Of a stretch of 50,816 nt of DNA, positions 6,766-21,412 are shown piece after piece. The notes beneath the pieces were generated by a model, which searched no databases, was not told where the DNA came from, and worked only from the letters and a program-made list of their open reading frames with translations. Position 1 is the stretch's first letter. The number at the start of each line of letters is the position of its first letter. The stretch comes from Phycisphaerae bacterium (lineage in GTDB: Bacteria > Planctomycetota > Phycisphaerae > Phycisphaerales > SM1A02), in NCBI GenBank assembly GCA_002709295.1, contig PAQL01000013.1, positions 42,812 to 93,627 of the forward strand, in the 5' to 3' direction. A program made the position numbers and the translations under genes.

Positions 6766-7512
6766 ATGCATTCACTGATCCTCTTACGTCACGGCCAAAG
6801 CCAATGGAATTTGGAAAATCGGTTTACCGGTTGGGTTGATGTACCGCTGAGCTCACAGGGCATTTCGGAAGCGGCCATGGCCGGCAAACTGTTACGTGAG
6901 CAGAACTTTACCCCAGAGGTCTTGTACACCTCTATGTTGGATCGCGCGATCCATACCGGTGAAATTGTGATGCGAGAGTTGGGGAGGAGTTGGGTCCCTG
7001 TGCATCGGTCGTGGCGGTTGAACGAGCGACATTACGGCGGCTTGCAAGGGCTCGATAAATCCGAAACCGCCCAGAAGTATGGAGATGAACAGGTCCACAT
7101 CTGGCGAAGGTCATTTGATGTTCCGCCACCACCGATGGACCCCTCGAGCGAGGATCATCCTCAGAATGATCCCCGCTATGCCGACGTCTCCAAATCCTTG
7201 CTCCCATCCGGTGAGAGTCTGGCCTTGACTCGAGAACGTGTGCTCCCATTCCTTAAGGACGAGCTTCTCCCCGCTGCCGCCGCTGGATCTACGCCAGTCG
7301 TGGCCGCCCATGGCAACAGTCTGCGGGCAATTGTCATGGCTCTGGACGAAATGGAGCCAGATGAAGTTCTTCAGTTAAACATTCCCACCGGAGTGCCGAT
7401 TGTTTACTCGATTGATCAAGATGGAACAGCGCGAAATCGCCAGTTTTTGGGTGATCCGGAGCAAATTCAAGCCATGATGGATGCAGTGGCTCAGCAAGGG
7501 AAATCAACTTGA
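6766..7512 (+). CDS. gpmA: 2,3-bisphosphoglycerate-dependent phosphoglycerate mutase
   Basis: This cytoplasmic glycolytic enzyme interconverts 3- and 2-phosphoglycerate through a phosphohistidine. The 248-residue length is standard for the dPGM family. LLRHGQSQWN at residues 6-15 holds the RHG catalytic histidine, followed by RFTGWVDVPLS. RLNERHYGGLQGLDK near residue 85 holds the active-site Glu region, and VVAAHGNSLRAI near residue 182 the second catalytic His. The ATG at 6766 is preceded by AGGA overlapping the TAG stop of the giant upstream gene, which supports co-transcription. The 3' end overlaps the next gene by TTGA (7509-7512). A core metabolic gene placed between genes for very large secreted proteins is unusual but the call is firm. 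Confidence 0.95.
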   Translation: MHSLILLRHGQSQWNLENRFTGWVDVPLSSQGISEAAMAGKLLREQNFTPEVLYTSMLDRAIHTGEIVMRELGRSWVPVHRSWRLNERHYGGLQGLDKSETAQKYGDEQVHIWRRSFDVPPPPMDPSSEDHPQNDPRYADVSKSLLPSGESLALTRERVLPFLKDELLPAAAAGSTPVVAAHGNSLRAIVMALDEMEPDEVLQLNIPTGVPIVYSIDQDGTARNRQFLGDPEQIQAMMDAVAQQGKST

Positions 7513-10500
7513 TTCGATTCCTCGTCACATCGTGGTCCATGGCGATCTTGGCATCGCCATCTTTGGCGCAGTCCCAGGATGACCAGCTGCTTTTTGGGGC
7601 CAATGTCGATTTCCAGATTCGTTCCGATCAGTTGAACCAAGCCGACACGCCACTCGCCGAACCAGACAATGTTCTCTTTGGTTACGCCACCGCAGCCACA
7701 GACGAGATTCTCGTAGTCGGGGCACCATGGTGTGATGAGCGAGGGTTCGACCGGGACAACAGCCTCTATGCCGGTGCTGTGTATGTCTACCAGAAGACGG
7801 ACCAAGGTTGGGCTCCGTTTCCGGGCCTCGATGGATTGCCACTCCCCGGCGGTAGAGACTTCAAACTGTTCCCTTCCGGTCTCCAACCCGGTGACCTTTT
7901 TGGTCACTCGGTTGATATCTCTAAAAACGAAGATGATTCACACACCCTTGTTGTGGGAGCACCGGGGACGCGTCACGCCACCACCGGTCAAGCCGATACC
8001 GGGAGTGTTTACGTCTTCCAATTGGACGCGGGCTCGTATTGCTGGCAAGAAGTTCCCGAGAGCCCGCTGCGTCTTCCGGAATGCTTCAACCTTGCTTTGC
8101 CAATTCCGGAAGACTGGGAAGATGAAGATCTCGACACCATCGAGTGGTCTTTCCCCGGGGGCACGCAATATATGGCGGGGATCTTTTCCATCCCTGAAGA
8201 ACGATATGGCGAATCCGTTTCGATCTTCTCGGGAGAACTGCCAAGAATTGACGGGCAAGATGTTGATGGTGTCCTCGCCATCGGTGCCCCACGACGTTCG
8301 GTGTTCGCCTACGACAAGTGTGATGTTGATCAGGATGGTCAATTTTGGGAACTTTTGGCAGAGCCTAACTTCGGCTGCGAAGTCGATCCTGATTGCCCAG
8401 AGTCATGCGATTTCGTTTTAGGCACCGAGGAGGCCGGAGCGGTATTTGTGTGGTACCGGGTCAATGGTCGATGGGTCTTGCCAAACGCGCAGAGTGTTGA
8501 TTGCGAGGCCGGCCTGGCACCTCTCCCATCCGATCCACCAGACATCACCAAAGACGACGACTTCTTCAACGATTCTCGTCGAGGTCGTTTTTATTCAACT
8601 GACCTCGTTGACTTTGGCGGGTTCACTCCTGAGTTCTCTGAGTTTGGTCACAAAGTCCAAGTTGTGGTTGATACGGAAGAATCAGCCAGTGACCGAATAC
8701 CACTGTTGCTCGCCTCGTCTCTTTTCGGCCGTGGGGGATCAGGAGGCGTGAAGTTCATCGACCTCGTCCCGCCCGACGAGTACGAATTTTCCGACTACCC
8801 CTTTGCTTACGATCCACTCGCTTCAACGACGTTCCCCCAGGTGTATAACAGTGCGCCATTCTGGGCCCGGCGGATCGGTTTTGACTTCGACGCCTTACCG
8901 CTCGGCTGGGGGCCGCAGCCACCAGAATCTGGCGACTACCAACTCACCGTGATCGGAATGCCTGGTAATGGTGGGCAAGGTGAAGCTCTGGTACTCACCC
9001 GAAATGAGTTTGGTGGCATCTATTCGATTGATCGGCTTGATCGGCTTTCGACCGATCAGGGCTACTTCCCCGACCTGTACCAGCAAGGAGCAACCGGAGG
9101 CGATGAAGAAGACGAAGGCTTGACCGCGTGGGCACAGTGGTCAACCAATCCGCAATATTCTGGGTATGACCCCATGCTTTTCGGATCAACTGTCCGCTTT
9201 GGTGGCGTATCAGATGACCGAGCAGATTTCATTTTTGTGGGAGCGCCTGGATTGACCGGAATCAAGCCAGATGCCGACCCTGACGACTTCGATTTTGATG
9301 TTCTTCCAGATCCGGACGTGAATAAATACTCGGCCGGTGGCATTTTTGTCTTTGAATACGACGGCATCCCACAGGGGCCTTACCTGACGAAGTATGAACG
9401 AACCGGCTTGATCTTGGCTCCGGACCCATCAGGTGACTCCCGGATTTTTCAAAGACTCGGCGAGTCAATGTCGCGCTACAAGCTTTCCCTTGACGAAGAG
9501 GACAGCCTTGGCGACGACATCAACCTGTTCTTCACCGAGCTCACGGTCCAAAAGAATGTGCCAGTCCCGTTCTATTATCGTCCTCGTCCAGGGACGGTTC
9601 AATCTTTGGTGATCGACTTAGATGATGTTGATGACCTTGGCGATATCGAAGATGCCTTCGAGAGTCCCCTGTCCCAAGCAATCCAATCAACACCAGAGGA
9701 TATGGCCGACCGCAGAGGCTTTGGCTACGACATCGCCACTTCTGAGAATGGAAACTGGATTGCAGTGGGGTCTCCTTTTTCCACTGTGCCGGTTGAATCC
9801 GAGTCAGTCTTTGTTCAATCGAGCAACGGCACTTTTTTCATGGCCGATGGTGCAATTTTCGAGTCCGGAGAAGTGTATCTCTTCGAGAGGTCGACAGTCC
9901 AAGATCCCGTCTCAGGACTCCGAACAGAAGTTTGGGAACTGAGGCAAACGATCCGCTCGCCTGCCGTTGGTTTGGAGCCCAGCACATCCCCCCTCGGAGA
10001 TGCCGCTGGATTCATTGCGAGAAATGCCATTCAGGAACGCTTTGGATTCTCACTCGACATGTCTCCCGATGCTCAGACACTTCTGGTTGGGGCATGGGGA
10101 GGCGGCGGCAGATACGCCGCCGACGATCCGTTTCCACTTCGTTCTCGAGGAATTGCGTACGTCTATCACCGAAACAGCACGAATGATGACTTTGAATTCA
10201 CTCGAACTCTCGCGGGGAAATCTTTCCCGAATACGCTGCAGGGGTACTCGGTCGCAGTTTCGAATGATGAATCTGGATCACTGCTCGTATCCGGAGGTCA
10301 ATTTTATTCTGACACTCTGGGAAGGGTAAGAACAGGCCGGGTCTTCTTTGCCAATCACTCCAACGGTCAGTTCACAGCGCCCCGCTTTGTTGAATCTTTT
10401 GACAATGTAGGCAATAGTCAGATCACCAATGAAAAGCAATTTGGTGCTGACGTAGAAGCCGACATTGTTTCCGGTCAAAACAGGATCATTGCCTCTTCAA

Positions 10501-11669
10501 TTGGATTTGAAACGAGAACTTCTACCGACACCGAACTCACAAGAGGCGAGGTTGAGATCCTCACCGGACCTTCTCGAACCCTTCTTGAAGGAGTGAATAC
10601 TTCACTCGGCTTTGGCACTTCGATGTCGCTCAGCGGTGATTTGTTGGGCGTTGGATCAGAAGGAACGGCGCACTTATTTGATATTGGAAGTTTCAGCAAT
10701 ATCCGGGCTGGATACGTTTTCTCCGATGTCAACACGTTCTACAGCAATCCGCCCTACAACTATTCCGTGCCTTTTGATCAGGGAATCCTCGCTTCATCCC
10801 TCACCCCGGAAGTCTCTTTCAGCTTTAATCAGCTCAGCGAGTCCATTTCTGTTCTTGACGAGGAGGGCGGCTTTGTTGTCTTGGGTGATCAAGGCGGCGC
10901 CGGAGCCAATTTGACCAATCAACGAACTGGATCTGCGCTTTTGTTCTCGCTGAATGACGACGTTACGGCGCCATCGGATTGGTCTTTTTCCGACCAGCCT
11001 GTCGTGCTGGGTGAACGGAAGCTCTCTGGTTTTAGTCAGGGGCTGGCGATGAATCTCTACCGCCGTGGCCCTCAGAAATCTCAAACTTCCGTCCGCCTGT
11101 ACGTATCTGGGACGACAGGAGCTCCCGGGTCTTCAAGTCCGATAGAGCCCGACTGTGGCGATCTCGTCTTTGACATTCCTCGCCGGTTTGAGTCTCGGAA
11201 TCAGATTTTCATGTACGAGACCAATTTCGACGACTGCAATGAGAATGGCATTCCGGACTCCTCCGAAATCGCATCGGATTCCTCTCGCGACTGCAACAAC
11301 GACGGGATTCTTGACGACTGCCAAGGTGACATCTTCACCGACTGCAACGAAAATCTTATCCCCGACATCTGCGAGATCGCTGGCCAGGACTGCAACGGCA
11401 ACGGCATTCTCGACTTCTGCGACATCGAAGACCGAAATGTTGATGACGTCAACGCTGATGGTATTCCTGACGTCTGCCAATGCCTCGGTGATGTGAACCA
11501 AGACGGCACCGTGAACTCTGAAGACTTCAATCAAGTCCTCGCGTTTATCCAAGACTCCGGCCAATCTGATCCGCCTTGCCTTGGGTGTCCTGAGGACGTT
11601 AACAACGACGGTCTCGTCAACATTCTTGATCTGAATTACATCACCACGTTCTCCGGAAGCTGCCCATGA
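7509..11669 (+). CDS. Secreted FG-GAP/beta-propeller-like protein with dockerin-like C-terminus
   Basis: The 1386-residue product starts at TTG inside the gpmA stop (TTGA overlap), giving a signal peptide MIRFLVTSWSMAILASPSLAQ. Most of the chain repeats blocks of the kind FGxSVxxxxD...LVVGAP followed by VYVFQ, which is the FG-GAP pattern of integrin-like beta propellers. Residues about 1241-1325 hold DCNENGIPD-type Cys/Asp/Asn repeats. The last 60 residues (from CLGDVNQDGTVNSEDF) have two DxNxDGxVN calcium-loop motifs as in type I dockerins and end GSCP. It is probably exported and surface-located; the ligand is unknown. Its stop overlaps the next start by ATGA (11666-11669), so translation is likely coupled. 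It resembles the product encoded at 43867-47445 in architecture. Confidence 0.8.
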   Translation: MIRFLVTSWSMAILASPSLAQSQDDQLLFGANVDFQIRSDQLNQADTPLAEPDNVLFGYATAATDEILVVGAPWCDERGFDRDNSLYAGAVYVYQKTDQGWAPFPGLDGLPLPGGRDFKLFPSGLQPGDLFGHSVDISKNEDDSHTLVVGAPGTRHATTGQADTGSVYVFQLDAGSYCWQEVPESPLRLPECFNLALPIPEDWEDEDLDTIEWSFPGGTQYMAGIFSIPEERYGESVSIFSGELPRIDGQDVDGVLAIGAPRRSVFAYDKCDVDQDGQFWELLAEPNFGCEVDPDCPESCDFVLGTEEAGAVFVWYRVNGRWVLPNAQSVDCEAGLAPLPSDPPDITKDDDFFNDSRRGRFYSTDLVDFGGFTPEFSEFGHKVQVVVDTEESASDRIPLLLASSLFGRGGSGGVKFIDLVPPDEYEFSDYPFAYDPLASTTFPQVYNSAPFWARRIGFDFDALPLGWGPQPPESGDYQLTVIGMPGNGGQGEALVLTRNEFGGIYSIDRLDRLSTDQGYFPDLYQQGATGGDEEDEGLTAWAQWSTNPQYSGYDPMLFGSTVRFGGVSDDRADFIFVGAPGLTGIKPDADPDDFDFDVLPDPDVNKYSAGGIFVFEYDGIPQGPYLTKYERTGLILAPDPSGDSRIFQRLGESMSRYKLSLDEEDSLGDDINLFFTELTVQKNVPVPFYYRPRPGTVQSLVIDLDDVDDLGDIEDAFESPLSQAIQSTPEDMADRRGFGYDIATSENGNWIAVGSPFSTVPVESESVFVQSSNGTFFMADGAIFESGEVYLFERSTVQDPVSGLRTEVWELRQTIRSPAVGLEPSTSPLGDAAGFIARNAIQERFGFSLDMSPDAQTLLVGAWGGGGRYAADDPFPLRSRGIAYVYHRNSTNDDFEFTRTLAGKSFPNTLQGYSVAVSNDESGSLLVSGGQFYSDTLGRVRTGRVFFANHSNGQFTAPRFVESFDNVGNSQITNEKQFGADVEADIVSGQNRIIASSIGFETRTSTDTELTRGEVEILTGPSRTLLEGVNTSLGFGTSMSLSGDLLGVGSEGTAHLFDIGSFSNIRAGYVFSDVNTFYSNPPYNYSVPFDQGILASSLTPEVSFSFNQLSESISVLDEEGGFVVLGDQGGAGANLTNQRTGSALLFSLNDDVTAPSDWSFSDQPVVLGERKLSGFSQGLAMNLYRRGPQKSQTSVRLYVSGTTGAPGSSSPIEPDCGDLVFDIPRRFESRNQIFMYETNFDDCNENGIPDSSEIASDSSRDCNNDGILDDCQGDIFTDCNENLIPDICEIAGQDCNGNGILDFCDIEDRNVDDVNADGIPDVCQCLGDVNQDGTVNSEDFNQVLAFIQDSGQSDPPCLGCPEDVNNDGLVNILDLNYITTFSGSCP
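11233..11480 (+). repeat. Cys/Asp/Asn repeat block (DCNxNGIxD type), coding
   Basis: About six short repeats encode segments such as DCNENGIPD, DCNNDGILDDC, DCNENLIPDIC and DCNGNGILDFC. Acidic and Asn residues spaced as in calcium loops and paired Cys resemble thrombospondin type 3 repeats. The block joins the propeller-like region to the dockerin-like end. Confidence 0.8.
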
Positions 11670-13312
11670 TCCTTTCCGCATTGCTTGTCGCTGTTCTTTC
11701 AGATGGTTTCAACACCTTTGCTTCACGGCCTACGGCGGGAGAAGTAGCTTTTTACGTTCCCAAAATTCTTGAAGCGGGATCCACCGTCCACTTTCAAAGC
11801 GAGTACTTCAAGCTCGAAGGTACGGTCAAGCGCGCGGTTGCTTCTCAGGGCACCCTGATTGTCACCGGAACGACACCCACTGGCGGGGATTTCGGTCTCC
11901 AGAGAACTCCAATCGGGTTTGAAGGGTTTTTCCGCACCCCTCGGCACACTGTCTTTGTGCTTCAGGGCAAGGACGGCTTGACCCTTCGTGCGAAGAAGAT
12001 CTTGGACAAGGGCTGTGGGGGCTCCTTCGAATCCGGTATCTCAAATGGTGGAGGTCTCCAGCTTGGCGGGCCTTGTGACATCTTCAATACCATCGATGTC
12101 TTCGCGCCTTACACCCAGGAGGCCCTTCAGGCCCTCGTAGAATCAGGAACGGTCCCTCCAATCGCCTGGTACGACGCTGAAGCCCTGCTGCGATCTCTGA
12201 TTCGCGTGGACGTGCTCCAAGCCAATATTGCCTACATCAACTCTGAAATTCCCCTCCAGCTCAACGTGAGAGGTCTTCATTTGATTTCAGAGCCAGAACC
12301 CTCTGAAGACTTCCTCCTGCCCACCATGCAGGAAGGTCTTGCGGGCAGCGGTCCTTTTGCCGAGCTCCAAGACATTCGCGAAGACCTCCGGGCCGACATT
12401 GTCACATTGATTTCCGGCAACGAGTTCCCCTTCTGTGGCGTGGCCTACCTCAACAGCGATGTTTCACAGACCCTCGTGGGCTGCCTTGGCGGGTTTGTTT
12501 TGGCCCATGAGGTGGGTCACAACCTCAATTGCTGCCATGCTCTTGGCGACGGGGGAGGGTGCCAGGGGTACACAGACTCTGGTCGCGGCCATCGCTTCTT
12601 TGGCGAAGATGACGAGCAGTACCGAACCATCATGGCCTACTCGCCTGGAACCCGCATTGATCACTTTTCGAATCCGGATGTCTTGTACGAAGGCGCTCCC
12701 ACTGGCATCCCGGGCGAAGCCGACTGTGCCGCCATGATCTGGCAGACCCGCGAGTTCCTTTCCAACATTCGCTGCCGAGACGGCGAAGAAGAGCTCAGCC
12801 TCTTGAGTTTCGGATCAACCCTGGACGAATGCGATGTGTTCACGGTTGAAATGGCGTGGCAAGGTGCTTTTGATCTGCATGCCCTGCAGTTCAACATCAA
12901 CGATGTCAACGCGGTTCGTTCGGCGGGAGGTGAATTTGCTGACCTGAGCTGGGATGTGTATTTGCTCGGTACCCAACTCATCGCCTTTGTGAACGACGAG
13001 CCAATCCCCTCGAGCGACCTTGCAACAACGCTAACTGCCCTTGAGCTTCGCACTCGCCAGGGTGAAAAGTTCCTCTCTGATGTGTATGCCATTGGCGCAA
13101 ACAACGATCTTATGCGGGTCGATCATGTGTCTTCCATCCTGACTGACTCATATTGTCCAGGCGACTTGACCGACGACAACGTGATTAATAACGCAGATTT
13201 GATCGCATACCTGTCCACCATCCCACAGCCAGACTTGAACTGTGACGGCTTGAACAGCTTTGCTGATCTCAGCTTTTTGCTTTCACGATTCGGCCAGACG
13301 GATTGCCCATGA
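11666..13312 (+). CDS. Secreted metzincin-type zinc metalloprotease with dockerin-like C-terminus
   Basis: The 548-residue product starts with a weak signal-like segment MILSALLVAVLSDGFNTFA. The zinc site is HEVGHNLNCCH (H281, E282, H285, H291), the HExxHxxxxxH form of metzincins, followed by TIMAYSPG, which looks like the Met-turn, and DHFSNPDV, as in M12B-like bacterial proteases. The position normally occupied by Gly in HExxHxxGxxH is Asn288 here. Residues about 497-548 (CPGDLTDDNVINNADL onward) form a dockerin-like module ending RFGQTDCP. Cys residues are abundant, fitting export. It probably cleaves extracellular proteins; substrates are unknown. The start overlaps the previous stop by ATGA, and the 3' end overlaps the convergent gene at 13269-13586 by 44 bases. 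Confidence 0.85.
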   Translation: MILSALLVAVLSDGFNTFASRPTAGEVAFYVPKILEAGSTVHFQSEYFKLEGTVKRAVASQGTLIVTGTTPTGGDFGLQRTPIGFEGFFRTPRHTVFVLQGKDGLTLRAKKILDKGCGGSFESGISNGGGLQLGGPCDIFNTIDVFAPYTQEALQALVESGTVPPIAWYDAEALLRSLIRVDVLQANIAYINSEIPLQLNVRGLHLISEPEPSEDFLLPTMQEGLAGSGPFAELQDIREDLRADIVTLISGNEFPFCGVAYLNSDVSQTLVGCLGGFVLAHEVGHNLNCCHALGDGGGCQGYTDSGRGHRFFGEDDEQYRTIMAYSPGTRIDHFSNPDVLYEGAPTGIPGEADCAAMIWQTREFLSNIRCRDGEEELSLLSFGSTLDECDVFTVEMAWQGAFDLHALQFNINDVNAVRSAGGEFADLSWDVYLLGTQLIAFVNDEPIPSSDLATTLTALELRTRQGEKFLSDVYAIGANNDLMRVDHVSSILTDSYCPGDLTDDNVINNADLIAYLSTIPQPDLNCDGLNSFADLSFLLSRFGQTDCP

Positions 13313-13586
13313 GTCGAAGGGCCAGCCAGGCCCCCACTGCAACATTTCCAAGCACGAGGAATAGGGCCGCATAGGCCAATCTTTTTCGGCCATCTTCAAC
13401 GACCCACATAATGGCGATGGCCATGGCGAGGCCTGCGTAGACGTCAACCACGGTCACAGCAAACCATTTGTTCTGTTGGATCCAGGTGCTTGATGGTGCC
13501 GCAGGCCCCTGAAGTAGGGCCCAGATGATGGCCAGCAGGACCATCAATCCGGCCGTCGTACCCACTGTTTGGAAATTTTTCGTCAC
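13269..13586 (-). CDS. Small membrane protein, DUF1475-like
   Basis: GTG at 13586 overlaps the upstream gene's TGA (GTGA, 13583-13586), giving 105 residues beginning VTKNFQTVG; an in-frame GTG/ATG-type start further upstream at 13616 would add ten residues but would overlap its neighbour by 34 bases. About three membrane segments are visible (GLMVLLAIIWALL, WFAVTVVDVYAGLAMAIAIMWV, AYAALFLVLGNVAVGAWLALRLM). The pattern VDVYAG...E(D)...LGN...AWLALRL matches my memory of bacterial DUF1475 proteins, which are often encoded beside Cfa-type methyltransferase and DUF1365 genes. It is the last gene of the seven-gene lipid operon, so a role in lipid modification is inferred. Its end lies inside the convergent metalloprotease gene. 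Confidence 0.65.
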   Translation of the reverse strand: MTKNFQTVGTTAGLMVLLAIIWALLQGPAAPSSTWIQQNKWFAVTVVDVYAGLAMAIAIMWVVEDGRKRLAYAALFLVLGNVAVGAWLALRLMGNPSGRIVKAKS

Positions 13587-14680
13587 TTCTGCATTCTCAC
13601 GTGGACAACGCCCCATTCTTTACCTTCGTCGAAGGCAAAAGTCTCCGCGCAGGCAAGGAAGAACACCCTCCAGCGGCGAAACATGACCTCCGGAGGGACA
13701 CTTGGAGTTCCTTTGAGCGCCTTCACGGCGAGCGACTTGTTCTGATCCAAATTGGCCAGCCAATGCTCACTGGTTCGACCATAGTGGCGGCCATCCCACC
13801 ACCAATCCTTCTCCACGCGAAGGATGTCTTTAAATTGATGGAAAAGATTACGTGAAGGCATGATTCCACCAGAAAAGAAGTGCTCGCCCATCCAGTTCCC
13901 GTAGCCCCGGCGCCCATACTCTTCACGGTTGCCTTCTGGCTCGTCTTCATCAAATTGGTAGGGGTGGGTGCGATGGGCAAACACGTGGGCAAAGAACCGC
14001 CCCTCGTCGTGCAGCCACGATCGGACACCGCTGAGCAACTTCTCCCAGTTTCGCATGTGCTCAAACATTTCAATTGACACAATGCGGTCGAAGCCATGGA
14101 GGGGCATGCGTTCCGGCACAATCTGCTTTGGGTCAAAATGATTCATGTCGCAGGTCACAATTTCAAGATTTGCCAATTTCTGCTCAGCGGCCTGGGCCAT
14201 GATGAACTCACGCTGCGAGTGAGAATTTGAGACTCCGGTAAACCTGGAATTGGGAAAGTGTTTAGCCATCCACAACGACCAAGATCCCCAGCCGCAGCCA
14301 AGTTCCAGAACGTGTTGTCCGTCTTCGAGCTTCGCGTGTTCCGCACTCTTCACAAAGGCAATCTCTTCGGCTTCATTAAGTGACTCCGTGAGATCCGGGT
14401 AGTAGCAAGAAGAGTATTTTTTCTGCTTTCCAAGGCATGAGTCATAGAAGGCAGCTGGTACTTCATAATGTTGGGCATTTGCCTTTTCCGGCACGGGCGC
14501 AATCGCGTCAAATTTCCGCATGGCGTTTAGAAAGTCCCTCATGGCCTCGGCTGCAGTTTGATTCTGTACAGAATGCTCAAGACGGGACCGGAGAAGCTTC
14601 CGGATGCCTTTCCTGATGTAGCGATCGGGAAGAAGCCCCCGATCGATCAGCCACGTGGCGAGTTCGTAAAGGAATTTCAT
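13583..14680 (-). CDS. SAM-dependent methyltransferase, Cfa/coclaurine-N-methyltransferase-like
   Basis: The ATG at 14680 overlaps the DUF2878 stop (ATGA, 14677-14680), giving 365 residues starting MKFLYELATWLIDRG; the longer frame to 14731 adds a non-family leader. VLELGCGWGSWSLWMAKHFP is the SAM-binding glycine motif I, and FDRIVSIEMFEHMRNWEKLL is the typical Cfa-family VSIEMFEH motif. The HYEVPAAFYDSCLG stretch corresponds to the substrate-entry HYD motif of cyclopropane fatty acid synthases. This subfamily frequently neighbours Cfa, DUF1365 and FAD-oxidoreductase genes. It likely methylates a lipid double bond or another lipid group using SAM at the inner membrane; the exact product is unknown. 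It is the second methyltransferase of the operon. Confidence 0.85.
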   Translation of the reverse strand: MKFLYELATWLIDRGLLPDRYIRKGIRKLLRSRLEHSVQNQTAAEAMRDFLNAMRKFDAIAPVPEKANAQHYEVPAAFYDSCLGKQKKYSSCYYPDLTESLNEAEEIAFVKSAEHAKLEDGQHVLELGCGWGSWSLWMAKHFPNSRFTGVSNSHSQREFIMAQAAEQKLANLEIVTCDMNHFDPKQIVPERMPLHGFDRIVSIEMFEHMRNWEKLLSGVRSWLHDEGRFFAHVFAHRTHPYQFDEDEPEGNREEYGRRGYGNWMGEHFFSGGIMPSRNLFHQFKDILRVEKDWWWDGRHYGRTSEHWLANLDQNKSLAVKALKGTPSVPPEVMFRRWRVFFLACAETFAFDEGKEWGVVHVRMQK

Positions 14681-15174
14681 GATTGTTGCTTCTTTGCCAG
14701 GTGCACCAAGAGAGGAAATGCGGTAGCCCACAGCAGGCCGACCGAAACCACCATGGTTAGGCGTCCGGCTTGGCCAAGCTCCACCGCACCAAAAGAGCCA
14801 GCGCTTGTGTAAGCGCCTACTCCGCCCAAGATTCCCAAAACCGGGGTCAGCCAGAACCGTTTCGAGAGGAAAGGCTCAAAAGCGGGGAGTGATGTGCCAA
14901 AGGCCAACCAAAGACCAGCCATCCACATGGGAACGGGTAAGACCGGAGATGCGGACGAAAAATCAAGTCCCCCCAATGCGACGACGCCGACGTCCCCGGC
15001 CAAGCCAATGAGTGTTGCGACAATTCCTAAGCGGATTGAGGCCTTGGGGTGCATGCGGAGGCACAGGCCGCTTGTGATCAAGGAAAAAAGAGCCGCCAGC
15101 AGGGGAAATCCTTGAGACGCAGCGTAAACCACAGCAACCCAATTTACATGCAGGAGAATGCCGAGTCTTAACAC
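14677..15174 (-). CDS. DUF2878-family integral membrane protein
   Basis: The 165-residue product has about five or six hydrophobic segments (for example ILLHVNWVAVVYAASQGFP, LGIVATLIGLAGDVGVVALGG, MWMAGLWLAFGTSL, LTPVLGILGGVGAYTSAG and the C-terminal MVVSVGLLWATAFPLLVHL). The N-terminal NW and the MWMAGLWLAFGTSL stretch match DUF2878, a family of unknown function commonly encoded with Cfa-type methyltransferases and DUF1365. The 5' end overlaps the cfa stop by 7 bases and the 3' end overlaps the next start by ATGA. A membrane role supporting lipid modification is inferred from context only. Confidence 0.75.
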   Translation of the reverse strand: MLRLGILLHVNWVAVVYAASQGFPLLAALFSLITSGLCLRMHPKASIRLGIVATLIGLAGDVGVVALGGLDFSSASPVLPVPMWMAGLWLAFGTSLPAFEPFLSKRFWLTPVLGILGGVGAYTSAGSFGAVELGQAGRLTMVVSVGLLWATAFPLLVHLAKKQQS

Positions 15175-16397
15175 GATCTATTTCCTGGTGCTGCAAAGGC
15201 AAGTTGTGAGAGGCCGATGGATCTTTCTCTAAAACCAGCCTCGCAGTACGAAAGGTAGTACTTCCAGAATCGTAGGAATCGATCATCAAATCCAAGCGTT
15301 CGAATTTGGGCCTCTTTCGCGCAGAAATTGTCCAGCCATTTTGAAAGGGTGATGGCATAGTCCTCCGCAAAGTCATCTTGGGCAACAAGACGAAGCTTTG
15401 AGTTCTCGGCAACAGCGCTCAGGATGGCGGCCAAAGATGGGCAACATGACCCGGGGAACACGTATCGACGAATGAAATCAGTATCCGCCAAGTATGCTTT
15501 GTACTTGTACAAAGGCATGGTGATCGCCTGAATTGATGCTTGCCCATCGGTCCTGAGCAGTCGATCAATGGCCTGGAAGTATGAAGGCAAGTGCTCGTGG
15601 CCCACGGCTTCGATCATTTCGACCGAGACCAAGCGGTCGTACGTTCCGGAGATTTCGCGGTAATCCTGCTGCAGAAGATGGATTCGACTTTCGAGGCCTC
15701 GGGAACGGATCAAGGCTTTTGCGTGGTTGAATTGCGCATCACTAATCGTGGTGGTGGTAACTTCAACATCGTGATTCTCCGCCAGATACACCGCGAATCC
15801 ACCCCAGCCAGTTCCAATTTCTACAACTTGGTGGCCGTCACGGATATCTGCGATTTTTGCCATCCTCTGGTATTTCGCGTGCTGCGCCGCACTGAGCGAG
15901 ACATCTGGGCTCGAAAACAGCCCCGAAGAATAGGTCAAGGATGGGTCAAGCCAAAGGCTGTAAAACTCGTTCGACAAGTCGTAGTGGGCGAGGATATTCT
16001 GCTTTGCTCGGTCAACGGTTCCTGATCGCGCTGCCTGCCAGAATTTGCTTTTCCATTTGCTCACCCAAGCGCGATCAGACAGAGAGGTTTGGACTTCGGC
16101 TTCTCGAGCAAAGATTCGAAGCACATCCGTAAGGTGGTCTGTGGTCCACCAGCCTTCGACCCAAGCTTCGGCGGCACCATTCGGACCGTGCTTTATGATT
16201 GAGGACCAGAACCTTTCGTCGAGCACTCGAAAACTGGCCAGATGATTGCCATGACCATATCGGGAGATCTGCCCATTTTCGGTGATTTCTAAGACTCCAG
16301 AGGAGATCTTTTCCAGACGCGAAAGAACAAGCCGTTTGGAAAGCGAGGAGTTACGCACACGGATTTGTTCGGGGACAATGGCGGGGGACTGGGTCAT
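15168..16397 (-). CDS. cfa: Cyclopropane-fatty-acyl-phospholipid synthase-type methyltransferase
   Basis: The 409-residue length is close to that of the family. Cfa enzymes transfer a methylene from SAM to a cis double bond in membrane phospholipid acyl chains. The sequence shows HYDLSNEFYSLWLD (substrate motif), VVEIGTGWGGFAVYLAE (SAM motif I), DRLVSVEMIEAVGHEHLPSYF, and the C-terminal RFWKYYLSYCEAGF, all characteristic. The ATG at 16397 overlaps the DUF1365 stop by ATGA. Together with the desaturase and FAD oxidoreductase upstream it could make cyclopropane, methylated or furan-type acyl chains. Relatives that make methylene- or methyl-branched acids share these motifs, so the product is not fixed by sequence alone. 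Confidence 0.9.
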   Translation of the reverse strand: MTQSPAIVPEQIRVRNSSLSKRLVLSRLEKISSGVLEITENGQISRYGHGNHLASFRVLDERFWSSIIKHGPNGAAEAWVEGWWTTDHLTDVLRIFAREAEVQTSLSDRAWVSKWKSKFWQAARSGTVDRAKQNILAHYDLSNEFYSLWLDPSLTYSSGLFSSPDVSLSAAQHAKYQRMAKIADIRDGHQVVEIGTGWGGFAVYLAENHDVEVTTTTISDAQFNHAKALIRSRGLESRIHLLQQDYREISGTYDRLVSVEMIEAVGHEHLPSYFQAIDRLLRTDGQASIQAITMPLYKYKAYLADTDFIRRYVFPGSCCPSLAAILSAVAENSKLRLVAQDDFAEDYAITLSKWLDNFCAKEAQIRTLGFDDRFLRFWKYYLSYCEAGFRERSIGLSQLAFAAPGNRSC

Positions 16398-17149
16398 GCA
16401 ACAGACTCCTGCATTTGATGCGTGCCAGGGTGTTTGATGTATGGGTTACCTTTGAGCCAGACTTGCATGGCGTGCCAGTAGATTCCTGCGACCACACGTA
16501 CGGTGGCCAATGGAGTGCCCCAAAGACAGCGACGTAAACCTCGAGCGGTTAAAGGAACTTTGGAGGTGGCAAAGGTGGCGTCGAATTTAAGCTCGCCACG
16601 CGAGCGGTTTTCCATGTGAACTGCAAAGTGTCGATCGGTGCAGTGAAAACGCCAGTGGTGCTGGTGATCCATCTCTAGAAATGGTGAGATGTGAAATTGC
16701 TTCGCAAAGTCGAAAGAACGTTGACCGTTCGTGCAATCATGAACATATGCGTGTCGCTCACCCCAAGGGATGTTGGTGATTTCGGTCACAATTGCTTGGA
16801 GATCACCTTTTTCATTGTGCGCGAAGTAAAAGGACACCGGGTTGAACTGGTGTCCGAAGTAACGGGGATGTGCAAGCAAGTACACATTTGAGATGTCAGA
16901 ATGGCCGAGTACGCGGTGGATTCGCTCACGGATCTCGTCACCAATCGCTCGATGCTCATCAAACCCGAAATCACGTTGTTGCCAACTCGCCAAATTTTCT
17001 TGGTTCGAAGACCAAAAGTTCGAAAGGCGGCAGACTTCTTGAATACGGTCCACATTGACACAAGGCATTCGAAGACCCATGCGAAAGTTGTGAGGCTTGA
17101 CCCCATATCTGCGGTGGCGAACCGTACCTTCGTGAATCCAGCCCAACAT
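16394..17149 (-). CDS. DUF1365-family protein
   Basis: The 251-residue product starts MLGWIHEGTVRHRRYGVKPHNF, matching the family opening (x-G-x-V-R-H-R-R-x-x-P-x-x-H-x-F), so the ATG at 17149 is well supported. HPRYFGHQFNPVSFYFAHN near residue 95 and NIPWGERHAYV are the other family signatures. DUF1365 proteins are nearly always encoded beside an FAD-dependent amine-oxidase-like protein and a Cfa-like methyltransferase, exactly as here. The biochemical function is not established. The gene lies 63 bases after the FAD oxidoreductase and overlaps cfa by ATGA. Confidence 0.9.
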   Translation of the reverse strand: MLGWIHEGTVRHRRYGVKPHNFRMGLRMPCVNVDRIQEVCRLSNFWSSNQENLASWQQRDFGFDEHRAIGDEIRERIHRVLGHSDISNVYLLAHPRYFGHQFNPVSFYFAHNEKGDLQAIVTEITNIPWGERHAYVHDCTNGQRSFDFAKQFHISPFLEMDHQHHWRFHCTDRHFAVHMENRSRGELKFDATFATSKVPLTARGLRRCLWGTPLATVRVVAGIYWHAMQVWLKGNPYIKHPGTHQMQESVA

Positions 17150-17212
17150 GACCGAAGATTAGGCCAAAAGGCGTCCTAGCGGCCAATAAATGGGGCAATC
17201 TGCACGTTTTGC

Positions 17213-18481
17213 CTAATTTTGTGCGCGGAGGAGAGGAGATTCACAGGCACCAAATGCCGCGGCTACGGCCTGGCCGCTGGCGCACCCATCCTCATGGAAG
17301 CCCCAGCCCCACCACGCTCCACAAAAGGACGTGCGTCGTCGGCGGCAAAATTCCAGTTGGCGGCGGCGAGCTGCCATTGAACCCGGCATGAATTCGGGAT
17401 GATCGTATTCAACCGTCCGGGCCACGGTCTCAGGTGCAACATCTCGGACATCATTGAGGGTGACGGACCAATCATGGGCGGCGGGCAAATTCTGGAGAAT
17501 ATTCATGCCGTAGGTGATCGAAGGGGGGGTGCCGGACGGATCACCTGATCTGAAGTTCCACGCGGCGTGGCATCTTCTATTCGAAGGCAGGGCTCTGGAA
17601 TCCGAGTGCAAACGCGCGGTATTTTTGCGGAACGGGACAGAAGACAGAACATTCACTTCATCTTCATCGGCGTCTGCCAACATGGCCAAGCTCTGATCAG
17701 CATGGCAAGCGAGGATGACTTCGTCAAATCGATGCGACTCACCGCAGACCGTGAGTGTGACTCCATCGATATCCCGGTGAACAGAATCGACCGCAGCGTT
17801 GAAGTGTACCTGGGGAAGATGCTGCAACAAGGCGCGAACGTACGTTCGAGATCCTCCCTCGACGGTCCTCCACTTTGGTCGCCCTCGGATGGCAAGCATT
17901 CGGTGGTGCTTCATGAAATCTAAGACAAACTTAATCGGGAAATCAAGGAATGCTTGCCCTGAACAACTCCATACGGCCGCGCCAAACGGCACCAGGTAGT
18001 CATCGCGAAAAGATTTACCAAGACGGTGTCGATCAAGATATTCCGCAACTGAACACTGGTCGTCAATATCAGGTTGTTCTTGTAGACCCACTCGGTGAAA
18101 TTTGAGCATGTCTTTGAGCATCATCCACACGCGAGGTGAAACGAGGTTGCGACGATTGGCAAACAATCCGCCCAGCCCGGTAGACTCCCACTCCAAGCCT
18201 GTCTGGGGGCGACGCACCGAAAAAGACATGGACGAGGGCTGGGTCTTCACACCCAGCTCTGCAAGCAGCGCCATGAACGTTGGATAATTTTCGGTGTTGC
18301 ATACGATGAATCCGGTATCAATGGCGAGAGGGCCATTCGGATCTTCAACATCAAATGTGTCTGCGTGTCCGCCGGGTCGAGAATCGGCTTCAAAAAGGGT
18401 GAGATCAGCATGATTTCGCAAGCGATAGCCTGCGGTCATTCCGGCGATGCCGGTGCCAACTATGGCGATTCTGGGTTTCAC
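17213..18481 (-). CDS. FAD-dependent oxidoreductase, amine-oxidase/desaturase-like
   Basis: The 422-residue product starts with a dinucleotide-binding fold, IAIVGTGIAGMTAGYRLRN, and the FEADSRPGGHADTF segment that follows is typical of the NAD(P)-binding flavoprotein group related to amine oxidases and phytoene desaturases. IDTGFIVCNTENYPTF and AVWSCSGQAFLDFP are signatures of the subgroup found with DUF1365 and Cfa. The C-terminal GAWWGWGFHEDGCASG contains the conserved region for the FAD flank. It probably oxidises or reduces a lipid acyl chain at the membrane. The ATG at 18481 overlaps the desaturase stop by ATGA. Confidence 0.9.
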   Translation of the reverse strand: MKPRIAIVGTGIAGMTAGYRLRNHADLTLFEADSRPGGHADTFDVEDPNGPLAIDTGFIVCNTENYPTFMALLAELGVKTQPSSMSFSVRRPQTGLEWESTGLGGLFANRRNLVSPRVWMMLKDMLKFHRVGLQEQPDIDDQCSVAEYLDRHRLGKSFRDDYLVPFGAAVWSCSGQAFLDFPIKFVLDFMKHHRMLAIRGRPKWRTVEGGSRTYVRALLQHLPQVHFNAAVDSVHRDIDGVTLTVCGESHRFDEVILACHADQSLAMLADADEDEVNVLSSVPFRKNTARLHSDSRALPSNRRCHAAWNFRSGDPSGTPPSITYGMNILQNLPAAHDWSVTLNDVRDVAPETVARTVEYDHPEFMPGSMAARRRQLEFCRRRRTSFCGAWWGWGFHEDGCASGQAVAAAFGACESPLLRAQN

Positions 18482-19383
18482 GCGGGGGACTGGATGCGTT
18501 GTTTTTGAATATGTTCAGGCACGCCCTTGAAGTTCTTTACCAGTCCGACTGCTTTCATCGCGCAAAGAATCCACCAGGTTGGGTCCAATTCCCACCAGCG
18601 GAACCCTTGACGCACTGTGGCGGGATAGTGGTGATGATTGTTGTGCCAACCTTCGCCCAGGGTGATGATCGCCAAGAAGAAGTTGTTCCGAGAATCATCT
18701 TTTGTTTGAAAGTCTCGCCGTCCCCAAACATGGGCGAGAGAGTTGATGGTGTAGGTGCCGTGGTAGCACAGAACGGTCGAGACAAAGAATCCCCAAACCA
18801 AAGCTTGGCCAACAGTTAATCCAATGCTCGGAAAGAATGACGAAGCGACGTAACCGGCACCCAACATCAGAAAGGCGGTTCCTATGGCGGGTACGTGATG
18901 GTTGCGGTCCAGCCAAACCAACTCAGGAAATTTCATCCAGTCTTTAACCAAACGGACGCGAACCGGAGCAGCCTCCTTGCAAAGGAACCACCCGCAGTGG
19001 GATTTCCAAAAGCCGTGCTGCTTGGGGGAGTGGGGGTCCAGGTGAGTGTCGGAATGAGAATGGTGGTCACGATGGTGTGCGGCCCACCAAATGGGGCCAC
19101 GCTGGACCGCCGAGGTGCCCAGAAGCCCCATGAGAAATTGAACGGGGCGGCTCGCGCTAAATGTCTTATGACTGAAGTAGCGGTGGTAAAAACCGGTGAT
19201 TGCGAACATGCGGATGATGTACATCCCCAAGCACAAGGCCAACGCTGCCCATGAAAATCCCACCCAGAAGACTGCCACGCACGCCACATGAAGAAGGATG
19301 TACGGAATCGTTTCAACCCAGCGAATTCGCCATTTGGTGACGTCAGGTTCATGGTCCGCTTCGTCAATGAAATGATCAGCCAT
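18478..19383 (-). CDS. Membrane acyl-CoA/acyl-lipid desaturase
   Basis: The 301-residue membrane protein carries the three His boxes of stearoyl-type (delta-9) di-iron desaturases: HRYFSH near residue 67, HHRDHH near residue 103 and HNNHHHY near residue 245. Hydrophobic stretches around them give about four membrane spans. It introduces cis double bonds into fatty acyl chains at the inner membrane using oxygen. It is the first gene of the seven-gene lipid operon and could supply the unsaturated substrate for the two Cfa-like methyltransferases downstream. The operon promoter should lie in the 49-base divergent gap at 19384-19432. Confidence 0.92.
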   Translation of the reverse strand: MADHFIDEADHEPDVTKWRIRWVETIPYILLHVACVAVFWVGFSWAALALCLGMYIIRMFAITGFYHRYFSHKTFSASRPVQFLMGLLGTSAVQRGPIWWAAHHRDHHSHSDTHLDPHSPKQHGFWKSHCGWFLCKEAAPVRVRLVKDWMKFPELVWLDRNHHVPAIGTAFLMLGAGYVASSFFPSIGLTVGQALVWGFFVSTVLCYHGTYTINSLAHVWGRRDFQTKDDSRNNFFLAIITLGEGWHNNHHHYPATVRQGFRWWELDPTWWILCAMKAVGLVKNFKGVPEHIQKQRIQSPA

Positions 19384-19432: not shown

Positions 19433-19849
19433 GTGTCGGTGAACGTTCTTGATGTGGTGTTGGCGGCGGCCCTTTCGGGGCTCTCATGGACCTGCTCGGT
19501 GGTCCATTACCCGCTTCTTTCCGATCTCCACCAAGATGGGGCAGGCGTGATCTACTTCCAGCGGCACATCAAACGCATCTTCCCACTGGTGGGAATCCTT
19601 ATGGCAGCTGAACTTATAATTGCAGCCTGGTTGTGCTGGACCGACGGATCGACCAGAAGCGTTGTCTCCCTGGGGCTGGTTTTGCTGATCTGGGGCATCA
19701 CGGGGCTTTTTGCAGCACCGGTTCACCAACTTCTTGTGGAAGAGCGGGCAACTCGCAAGGATCTTTCAAGGCTTCTCCGAGCCCACCATTTTAGAACTGC
19801 CGGTTGGACCCTTCGCTGTGGCATTGTGGCATTTGGGAGTGCGGGATGA
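19433..19849 (+). CDS. Four-helix integral membrane protein of unknown function
   Basis: A 138-residue product from GTG at 19433; GTG at 19439 is an equally plausible start. Hydrophobic segments near residues 7-24, 46-65 and 77-96 and a weaker one near the end suggest about four membrane helices. The pattern VVHYPLL...H...I...VGILMAAELIIAAWL...APVHQLL...H..RTAGWTLR recalls a widespread uncharacterised bacterial membrane family. It is divergent from the lipid operon and overlaps the DCC-family gene by ATGA, so the two are likely co-translated. Function not recognised. Confidence 0.7.
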   Translation: MSVNVLDVVLAAALSGLSWTCSVVHYPLLSDLHQDGAGVIYFQRHIKRIFPLVGILMAAELIIAAWLCWTDGSTRSVVSLGLVLLIWGITGLFAAPVHQLLVEERATRKDLSRLLRAHHFRTAGWTLRCGIVAFGSAG

Positions 19850-20286
19850 CCGGCGAACCCAAAGACGCCATGAATTCGAGACAGAGCCGCTTCACACTGC
19901 TGTATGACGGAGAATGTCCTCTGTGCCGGAGAGAAATCGAATGGTTCTGCCGCCGAGATCCTGAGGCTATGGATGTGGTCGACATTTCTGACAAAGACTT
20001 CGACAGCGCTGCCTTTGGGTTTGAGCACGATGACGTTCACCGCGAGCTCCACGGGATCAAGCCAGATGGAACGGTCACGGTTGGGATGGATTCCGTGAGG
20101 GAGGCGTACCGAGTGGTCGGCCTGGGATTCATGGTTTCATTCACCGCTTACTGGCCATTCCGTCCGGTTACGGATTGGATGTACCGGCGGTTTGCCGCAA
20201 ACCGGCTCAAGATCGGCTCGTGGATGGGGCGGGAGAACTGCGACGAGAACAGATGCCAACCACCCTCAAACTCCCCCAAAGCCTGA
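19846..20286 (+). CDS. DUF393 / DCC-family thiol-disulfide oxidoreductase-like protein
   Basis: The ATG at 19846 overlaps the previous stop by ATGA and gives 146 residues. YDGECPLCRREIEWF near residue 20 is the DxxCPxC signature of the DCC family (Cys24 and Cys27), which has a thioredoxin-like fold and predicted redox activity. ISDKDFDS and DGTVTVGMDSVREAYRVVGLG also match the family layout. A hydrophobic patch near residue 95-110 may associate with the membrane. Its location beside the lipid operon is noted but its role is unknown. Confidence 0.85.
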   Translation: MTGEPKDAMNSRQSRFTLLYDGECPLCRREIEWFCRRDPEAMDVVDISDKDFDSAAFGFEHDDVHRELHGIKPDGTVTVGMDSVREAYRVVGLGFMVSFTAYWPFRPVTDWMYRRFAANRLKIGSWMGRENCDENRCQPPSNSPKA

Positions 20287-20328: not shown

Positions 20329-21372
20329 CTAATCAAGAACGCTGGACAGCAGGCTGTCAATCCGCCTTGTGGCATTTGGAGCCTCCGCCGCGCCCAAGTG
20401 CCACTTGATCTGTTCAGACACCGCAGATGGGTCATCAGGCGGAGATCCGGGCGAGAGTCCACGAGCCGCCGCAGGCAGAAGCTCGCGATAAGACAGTCCG
20501 GCCGGAACCCACGGCATGCATCCAGCGAACATGGACTCAACCACCGACAGCCCGAAGAATTCATGTCGTGCGGTTGAGCACACCCAATCGGCGGACGCAA
20601 TGATCGATTCATAGGTGCTTCGTTTGGGGTAATCGTCAAAGACTATTGAATCGGAAAACTCCTTACGAAACTGTTGGATGCCCTCGGGGACACGATCAAA
20701 CCGCTCGCCCAGCAAGGCCCATCGGATCGAAAGTTCTCGGTGAGACCTGGCTAGATCAAGCAGAAGGTCAGGCCCCTTGTCGTGTTCGTGGCGATGAGGC
20801 CACACCACCAGCGGTGTATCTGCATTTTCAATGGGGCAAGGAAGCTCTGGATTGGGGACTTCAACCGGGCACCAGGCCACATTGCTCCGAGATCGAATGG
20901 ACTCCTCTACATCATCAAAGGGAATACCGCGGCATGGTTCGAGAAGGCCGGGAAGCCCGGACAAAAACGATTCCAAATTCCAGCGGCTGTTCCATAAGAC
21001 CAAATCGGCTGAAAAAATGGAATTGAGATTCGTCAAAGCAAAGTGAATATCTCGCTGGTCCTCCTGACGGTTGGAGTCTGCGGGGTATTCCACCTGATTT
21101 TCATGCATGTACAGCACCGTTGGAACTCGCTTGCCAATTTTTGACTCAACCTGAATGCGGGCCGATGCCACATCAAGAAGACTGGTGCAAAAAAAGACGT
21201 CAGGCTGAGGGAGGCTGGAGAAAGGGACAAGTCCCCCGACCCTCATGGCCCACTTCCAGGGTGTGGCATTGTTGGTGATCCAGTGCCAATGGTGTTTGCT
21301 GTGTCGCGACAAAATCTCGCGAAAATGACGGTGGGACCCTCGGTCGAACGATTCCATGGCCAAGATTTCCAT
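20329..21372 (-). CDS. tRNA-queuosine alpha-mannosyltransferase-like glycosyltransferase (DUF3524)
   Basis: The ATG at 21372 gives MEILAMESFDRGSHRHF, which fits the family opening (MxIxxxExFxGGSH); ATG at 21381 or GTG at 21399 are alternatives. The product is then 347 residues. VLYMHENQVEYP near residue 95 and the DIHFALTNLNSIFSADLVLWNSRWNLESFL stretch (DxHFAxTNxxS, NSxxN) are hallmarks of the DUF3524/GTDC1 group. The C-terminal half, with WPHRHEHDKGPDLLLDL and HEFFGLSVVESMFAGCMP, is a GT-B glycosyltransferase domain. Animal GTDC1/QTMAN attaches mannose to queuosine in tRNA-Asp; bacterial members are less characterised. A QueD-like gene lies at 29773, which supports a queuosine context. Substrate identity in this organism is inference. 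Confidence 0.85.
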   Translation of the reverse strand: MEILAMESFDRGSHRHFREILSRHSKHHWHWITNNATPWKWAMRVGGLVPFSSLPQPDVFFCTSLLDVASARIQVESKIGKRVPTVLYMHENQVEYPADSNRQEDQRDIHFALTNLNSIFSADLVLWNSRWNLESFLSGLPGLLEPCRGIPFDDVEESIRSRSNVAWCPVEVPNPELPCPIENADTPLVVWPHRHEHDKGPDLLLDLARSHRELSIRWALLGERFDRVPEGIQQFRKEFSDSIVFDDYPKRSTYESIIASADWVCSTARHEFFGLSVVESMFAGCMPWVPAGLSYRELLPAAARGLSPGSPPDDPSAVSEQIKWHLGAAEAPNATRRIDSLLSSVLD

Positions 21373-21412
21373 ACATTCCATGGTAGATTGAGAAGCCACC
21401 CGAGGAATTGAT

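Follow-up and report, generated by a model that had tools for sequence, protein, structure and literature searches.

Seven minus-strand genes of a Phycisphaerae bacterium very probably form a furan fatty acid (FuFA) pathway contained in one operon, which would act on phospholipid acyl chains. They lie at 13269-19383 of the window, by which we mean the whole stretch of 50,816 nucleotides that was analysed (contig PAQL01000013.1 of assembly GCA_002709295.1, positions 42,812 to 93,627), and they bring all four enzymes of the published pathway, UfaM, UfaD, UfaO and FufM, into one transcription unit together with an SCD1-like acyl desaturase. To judge from the enzymes encoded, the product is probably a dimethyl-FuFA. 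As membrane antioxidants, furan fatty acids are known in plants, in fish and in a few bacteria; where else among microbes they come from is little understood. While the pathway is known already from two photosynthetic bacteria, here it is predicted, with a desaturase of its own, in a planctomycete.

A tightly packed seven-gene operon

An earlier note on this DNA had described a closely packed seven-gene operon with 4- to 7-base overlaps and a single 63-base gap, and the listing of open reading frames (ORFs) bore this out, with all seven ORFs in place (Table 1). The packing holds when the second methyltransferase gene starts at ATG 14680 and the last gene at GTG 13586. The desaturase gene and the flavin adenine dinucleotide (FAD) enzyme gene overlap by 4 bases, 63 bases separate the latter from the DUF1365 gene, and this in turn overlaps the "Cfa" gene by 4 bases, which overlaps the DUF2878 gene by 7. 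The DUF2878 and second methyltransferase genes overlap by 4 bases (55 with the mechanical ORF start, GTG 14731), as do the second methyltransferase gene and the last gene (34 with ATG 13616). Six of the gene labels in the earlier note were matched by Pfam families (FA_desaturase, Amino_oxidase/NAD_binding_8, DUF1365, CMAS, DUF2878 and again CMAS), whereas the seventh, "DUF1475-like", was reached only through an intermediate homologue.

Table 1. Predicted features of the operon and of one divergent gene beside it (window coordinates)
Feature	Position	Strand	Basis
SCD1-like acyl desaturase	18478..19383	-	PF00487, 71.1 bits; predicted to place the cis double bond for UfaM
Putative UfaD-like FAD-linked enzyme that desaturates the methylated acyl chain	17213..18481	-	Amino_oxidase/NAD_binding_8; GTGIAG motif
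UfaO-like DUF1365 protein, predicted O2-dependent furan-ring enzyme	16394..17149	-	PF07103, 229.6 bits
Putative UfaM-like acyl methylase ("Cfa")	15168..16397	-	CMAS, 251.4 bits
DUF2878 small membrane protein	14677..15174	-	PF11086, 76.3 bits
Putative FufM-like furan fatty acid methylase	13583..14680 (mechanical ORF from 14731)	-	CMAS; R. palustris FufM match
Small protein, three hydrophobic stretches	13269..13616, start possibly 13586	-	DUF1475-like via an intermediate only
Divergent DCC1-like thiol-disulfide oxidoreductase, possible accessory	19804..20286	+	PF04134, 76.4 bits

A predicted route from saturated chains to dimethyl furans

The reading of the operon as an acyl-chain tailoring pathway was upheld, as four of its genes match UfaM, UfaD, UfaO and FufM and both the signature residues and a tree agree; the UfaM/UfaD/UfaO route, cited in the earlier note by way of example, is very probably the one encoded here, so that the analogy had been understated. 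Identity to the orthologues of Rhodopseudomonas palustris XCP amounted to 40% over 421 residues for UfaD, 28% over 240 residues for UfaO, 41% over 415 residues for UfaM, and 45% for FufM. UfaO of Rhodobacter is a DUF1365 protein whose furan oxygen comes from O2; for UfaD, NAD/FAD binding is predicted; UfaM is an S-adenosylmethionine (SAM)-dependent acyl methylase, and FufM is a further SAM methylase that takes monomethyl to dimethyl furans (PMC7380195). Of the three components that had been listed as lacking a function, the DUF1365 protein thus belongs to the UfaO family, while the DUF2878 protein and the last gene stay unexplained.

In the route that we propose, the SCD1-like desaturase would use O2 to place a cis double bond in a saturated chain, upon which UfaM would add a methyl group from SAM at this double bond, yielding a methyl-branched trans-monoene and no cyclopropane. 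UfaD would oxidise this monoene to a conjugated methyl-diene, UfaO would insert one oxygen atom from O2 and close the monomethyl furan, and FufM would add the second methyl group to give the dimethyl-FuFA. The four steps from UfaM onwards have been demonstrated with enzymes of Rhodobacter sphaeroides and R. palustris (PMC7380195), and from the sequences we infer the same activities for the planctomycete orthologues. If the desaturase is of the Delta9 type, 16:1(9) or 18:1(9) would arise, and the expected chains would then be 7D5- or 7D7-FuFA, or 9D5 after elongation, in analogy to the formation of 9D5 from 18:1(11); we infer both this regiospecificity and the 7D5/7D7 names. The DUF2878 protein and the last gene product are taken as putative accessory membrane proteins. 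By analogy with Rhodobacter, the likely role of the product would be that of a membrane shield against oxidants such as singlet oxygen.

Recurrence of the gene set across Planctomycetota and on plasmids

The gene arrangement is far beyond chance, because the same genes cluster in most of 80 planctomycete loci. Upon running the neighbourhood comparison across Planctomycetota that had been suggested, we found UfaD, UfaM, FufM, the desaturase and DUF2878 to recur around DUF1365. DUF1365 itself was detected in 82 of the 294 Planctomycetota genomes sampled, the window's own included; if the FuFA reading is true, over a quarter of the sampled phylum carries the UfaO marker. Outside the window there are 82 DUF1365 places, of which the loci cover 80 (G212, which is partial, and G162 were left out), and presence was scored with hidden Markov model cut-offs of our own setting, with genes split or cut by contig ends counted as absent, so that all counts are lower bounds. 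UfaD was present in at least 78 loci, UfaM in 77, FufM in 70, the desaturase in 50 and DUF2878 in 37. All four core genes occurred together in 66, and most loci examined would thus hold the full dimethyl set; 45 had the desaturase in addition, and 26 had DUF2878 too. The commonest order, FufM-desaturase-UfaD-UfaO-UfaM-DUF2878, was seen in 12 loci. A DUF1295 gene was found in 32 loci and a CarH-like regulator in 24, both families being single-linkage BLAST clusters with Pfam run on one planctomycete member each.

The same core was found in plasmid loci of Cupriavidus, Burkholderia and Rhizobium tropici, for which the gene tables are incomplete. In Burkholderia and R. tropici it adjoins sigma-factor and anti-sigma genes (ChrR in R. 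tropici), and in R. leguminosarum FufM stands with an FAD enzyme and sigma/ChrR genes, DUF1365 not being among the genes in the stretch shown. Base composition gave no signal of horizontal transfer, with a G+C content of 53% in the operon against 55% in the window (left flank 54%, right flank 56%); the patchy spread of DUF1365, which occurred in 2 of the 15 listed genomes of the window's order including its own, leaves room for such transfer.

The first methyltransferase departs from cyclopropane synthases

In alignments, the window UfaM has Ala at the position of Escherichia coli Cfa His240 and Gln at that of His266, with Glu239 and Tyr317 kept. The bicarbonate in E. coli CFAS is held by Glu239, His266 and Tyr317 (PMC11387697), and the window protein departs from this ligand set at His266. 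The Ala/Gln signature was also found in UfaM of R. palustris, R. tropici and Acinetobacter WY4, and in 72 of 72 planctomycete UfaM rows aligned (a 90% coverage filter left 72 UfaM and 66 FufM planctomycete rows), whereas E. coli Cfa and the R. palustris Cfa paralogue, the two canonical Cfa sequences in our alignments and tree, have His at both positions. In a maximum-likelihood tree of 60 rows (every third planctomycete row, i.e., 24 UfaM and 22 FufM, plus 14 named rows; rooted at midpoint for drawing), 30 UfaM rows including the window's grouped at 100/96, with both canonical Cfa sequences outside this group.

These data bear on the alternative that the operon makes cyclopropane or 10-methyl fatty acids, with a true Cfa whose methylene intermediate is reduced by the FAD enzyme. 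Although the first methyltransferase matches the CMAS family at 251.4 bits and has a cyclopropane synthase as its best solved match (6bqc, E 4.2e-50), the exchanges His266 to Gln and His240 to Ala, shared with the other UfaM rows, and the separation of the window UfaM from both canonical Cfa sequences in the tree make this alternative very improbable. Furthermore, the FAD enzyme belongs to the amine-oxidase type, its alignment with R. palustris UfaD covering residues 4-412 of 422, and we know of no DUF1365 gene with a part in cyclopropane synthesis. Cyclopropane, which the earlier note had counted among the conceivable products, is unlikely because the first "Cfa" lacks the His266 bicarbonate ligand, and we rejected cyclopropane synthesis on the active-site residues and the tree, with two canonical Cfa sequences compared. 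The genome holds no further strong CMAS gene beyond the operon pair, its two other CMAS matches (34.6 and 29.8 bits) being just above the cut-off of 27. For the FuFA reading, the His266-to-Gln signature may serve as a simple marker by which furan-pathway genes, in other bacteria too, can be told from cyclopropane synthases, as which they are annotated; it also offers a testable idea why the reaction would halt before ring closure.

The second methyltransferase as a FufM orthologue

The second methyltransferase, previously grouped with the first as Cfa-like, appears from its R. palustris matches and from the tree to be a FufM orthologue rather than a second cyclopropane synthase. It is 44.6% identical over 354 residues to FufM of R. 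palustris XCP, its one strong match, and 28 FufM rows including the window's grouped at 100/100. In the FufM rows (66 of 66 planctomycete rows, R. palustris and the window), both the 240 and the 266 position are His, and Phe replaces Ile268. R. palustris XCP yielded three matches to the window protein, one strong (48%), one adjoining DUF1365, and one the Cfa paralogue; in strain CGA009, three such enzymes are named, RPA2569, RPA3082 and RPA0924 (PMC7380195). Among ten genomes (nine Rhodopseudomonas and one Bradyrhizobium; found with a cytochrome c2 bait, 10 of 34 loci having been taken to whole-genome searches), each had one DUF1365 match and nine had a strong FufM match, the exception, R. rhenobacensis (G302, reached through L131), having a UfaM-type match only.

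A DUF1295 gene (steroid-reductase-like; L191:7730-8638 in R. palustris) overlaps or neighbours fufM in R. palustris, in several proteobacterial plasmids and in many planctomycetes; the window's 95%-complete genome gave no DUF1295 match.

A second alternative would have the operon stop at monomethyl furans, with the second methyltransferase acting on another substrate, for instance by N-methylating an amino lipid or a small amine. The closest solved structures are indeed plant alkaloid N-methyltransferases (coclaurine, pavine and tetrahydroprotoberberine), led by coclaurine N-methyltransferase 6gkv at E 1.6e-49 and 172 bits (the R. palustris FufM match has 326 bits, from another program), and a carbon target is not provable from sequence alone. 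However, the protein is 44-51% identical to the strong FufM matches in Rhodopseudomonas and Bradyrhizobium, FufM lies near UfaO, within the stretch fetched, in 70 of the 80 planctomycete loci, and the protein falls within the FufM group of the tree at 100/100. We therefore regard N-methylation as improbable and the dimethyl-FuFA as the probable product. The kinship between plant N-methyltransferases and this lipid methylase family hints at a common origin.

Conserved residues and predicted fold of UfaO

In an alignment of 70 UfaO sequences, including three from Rhodopseudomonas and Bradyrhizobium, the columns G8, H12, R14, P104, N126, K150, S155, P156, F157, I223 and A227 were invariant, and all but G8 and P104 stayed so when R. 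tropici and Acinetobacter were added (72 rows). These residues are candidates for the catalytic site. The structure model of UfaO is confident, with a predicted local distance difference test (pLDDT) score of 92.6; its sequence matched no solved structure up to E = 10, and the model had no Foldseek match at E <= 0.001 (best 1.3e-2). A second structural comparison returned calycin-like barrels, with Z of 6.5 for the spirocyclase OlmO and 6.3 for Arabidopsis 2a13 and a nitrobindin mutant; as these scores are under the trust level of the tool, no cofactor was assigned from the barrel likeness.

The operon desaturase and the source of the double bond

Desaturases of the stearoyl-CoA type carry the histidine boxes HX4H, HX2HH and HX2HH together with NXXXH. 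The operon desaturase has this set (HRYFSH at 67, HRDHH at 104, NSLAH at 214 and HNNHH at 247), in alignment with acyl-CoA desaturase 1 (4ymk, E 1.1e-32). The anaerobic route to monoenes is that of FabA, and none of 99 Planctomycetota scored over the FabA profile cut-off of 238, while 2 of 14 control genomes scored over it; at E <= 0.001, 94 of the 99 gave matches of up to 108 bits, which we take for related dehydratases. Since FabA over the cut-off is found in none of these 99, an O2-dependent operon desaturase is sensible as the double-bond source.

Contrary to the expectation that a built-in desaturase is peculiar to this genome, it is also present in the 50 planctomycete loci and beside DUF1365 on seven Acinetobacter plasmids, where the two genes are ~2.2 kb apart (matches H41-H47 and H63-H69). 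Hence, the SCD1-like desaturase is a recurrent partner, peculiar neither to the window nor to planctomycetes. The full gene order on these plasmids was seen for Acinetobacter sp. WY4, whose desaturase, from a matching operon, is 55% identical to that of the window. Five further Acinetobacter records gave a two-piece match over 72% of the desaturase (H50-H54).

It is possible, though the less favoured view, that the desaturase serves housekeeping or acclimation and is co-transcribed by happenstance, with UfaM using other monoenes. The genome holds a second FA_desaturase, 30 of the 80 planctomycete loci have no desaturase in the stretch fetched, none is listed in 4 of the 5 proteobacterial plasmid loci viewed, and none was matched in the fetched stretches of Rhodopseudomonas and Bradyrhizobium. 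Against this, the desaturase, where present, is on the UfaO strand in 50 of 50 loci, the trimmed desaturase and UfaD matches are separated by a median of 30 bases (48 loci measured), and the seven best plasmid matches, all from Acinetobacter, start ~2.2 kb from the DUF1365 match. If the desaturase does feed UfaM, it yields a definite prediction on chain positions.

Accessory and flanking genes

The DUF2878 model comprises six helices (pLDDT 96.0) and had no match in the Protein Data Bank at E <= 0.001. The last gene is the least sure of the seven. Its protein matched no significant Pfam family (up to E = 1 there was one match, at E 0.5), and the DUF1475 label is not reached directly: it is a homologous ORF of a different planctomycete (L114:4476-4925, E 8.6e-9 among 5565 ORFs) that weakly reaches DUF1475 at 25.2 bits, with a cut-off of 22.3. 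The 3' end of the gene overlaps a convergent metalloprotease ORF (11666-13312) by 44 bases. As with the desaturase, nothing in the fetched stretches of Rhodopseudomonas and Bradyrhizobium matched the DUF2878 protein or the last protein.

A divergent plus-strand pair, 19433-19849 and 19804-20286, begins 49 bases from the operon; the first encodes a small protein whose match to anthrone oxygenase stays below the threshold, and relatives of the second, the DCC1-like protein, occur in 6 of the 80 planctomycete loci, each time on the strand of UfaO. Farther out, 20329-21399 (minus strand) encodes a tRNA-queuosine mannosyltransferase-like protein in a bacterium (QTMAN_N, 123.6 bits), and on the other side a large FG-GAP repeat protein gene (7509-11669, plus strand) overlaps the reprolysin-like metalloprotease gene (11666-13312, plus strand) by four bases.

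Regulation, published chemistry and meaning

CarH-like regulators beside furan fatty acid genes suggest light control. In the one member that was scanned, a helix-turn-helix domain is combined with a B12-binding domain, and the Wx9EH motif, presumably that of B12 photoreceptors, is present in 14 of 25 CarH-like proteins. Loci with such a regulator include L036, L051, L052, L058, L065, L066 and L073-L076; the window's own genome has one CarH-like match (36%), located on another contig. The response of Vibrio cholerae to blue light is mediated by MerR and ChrR, and such light raises VC1122, which is annotated as Cfa (PMC5241685); VC1123 of this species is a DUF2878 protein annotated in a MerR-family regulon (PMC12971978). 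By analogy, these data would fit a photo-oxidative role.

Several points weigh against the FuFA reading. The identity of UfaO is low (28%), and the R. palustris comparison strain was XCP, not the tested CGA009, so that function is transferred twice, to a host organism known here from its genes. The host genome has no match to DUF1295, although a gene of this family overlaps the fufM candidate of R. palustris and 32 of the 80 planctomycete loci contain one; FufM is also kin to plant amine N-methyltransferases; the second FA_desaturase means that the operon enzyme need not supply the relevant double bonds; and in 30 of the 80 loci the stretch fetched shows no desaturase. Published planctomycete chemistry can be set beside this by way of 11-methyl 18:1(w7c), which we take to be the name under which the UfaM product is reported. 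This acid, which UfaM would be expected to make and which thus speaks for the reading where it occurs, is listed in traces of 0.29, 0.08 and 0.23% in three of 13 Gimesia strains and at 0 in the other ten, and the parts of the Gimesia fatty acid table viewed list no furan acid (PMC7716864). A planctomycete version of the pathway had been thought undescribed, in agreement with our searches of the open-licence literature, where we found no paper that joins Planctomycetota with furan fatty acids; most subscription papers lie outside this scope.

More tentatively, the gene set may be a portable and self-sufficient cassette leading from saturated chains to dimethyl furans, in which an SCD1-like desaturase dedicated to UfaM would let hosts that lack the FabA route make novel FuFA of the 7D5/7D7 type on demand, under CarH-like light control in part of the Planctomycetota, and which would have moved between phyla, Acinetobacter plasmids included.

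Comparison with known systems

E. coli Cfa shares with the window UfaM the methyltransferase family as well as Glu239 and Tyr317, and differs in His266 and His240, both replaced in the window. All three enzymes UfaM/UfaD/UfaO are common to the window, to Rhodobacter (Cereibacter) sphaeroides (RSP2144/RSP1091/RSP1090) and to R. palustris (RPA2569/RPA2571/RPA2570), and with R. palustris the window also has in common the active-site signature of UfaM and, in strain XCP, a side-by-side placement of ufaD, ufaO and ufaM on one strand. Unlike these two systems, the window operon comes from a distant phylum and adds FufM, the desaturase, DUF2878 and the small membrane protein. No sigma-E/ChrR genes were found among the eight flanking genes scanned, one of which encodes a Fur-family regulator; the rest of the genome was not searched for them. 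The R. palustris FufM (RPA0924), alike in its 44.6% identity and common tree group, is encoded away from the ufa genes and overlaps the DUF1295 gene, whereas the window gene lies inside the operon. In Arabidopsis, AtUFAMD1 (AT3G23510), AtUFAO1 (AT1G30130) and AtFUFM1/LIME1 (AT4G33110) are proposed to synthesise FuFA on lipid droplets (PMC10940516); these three proteins would cover the same four activities, one of them matching both UfaM and UfaD. The plasmid of Acinetobacter sp. WY4 (NZ_CP053948) resembles the window in its one-strand order of desaturase, FAD oxidoreductase, DUF1365, Cfa-type enzyme, DUF1295 and methyltransferase, and differs in having DUF1295 where the window has DUF2878, in the sensor kinase alongside, and in being plasmid-borne.

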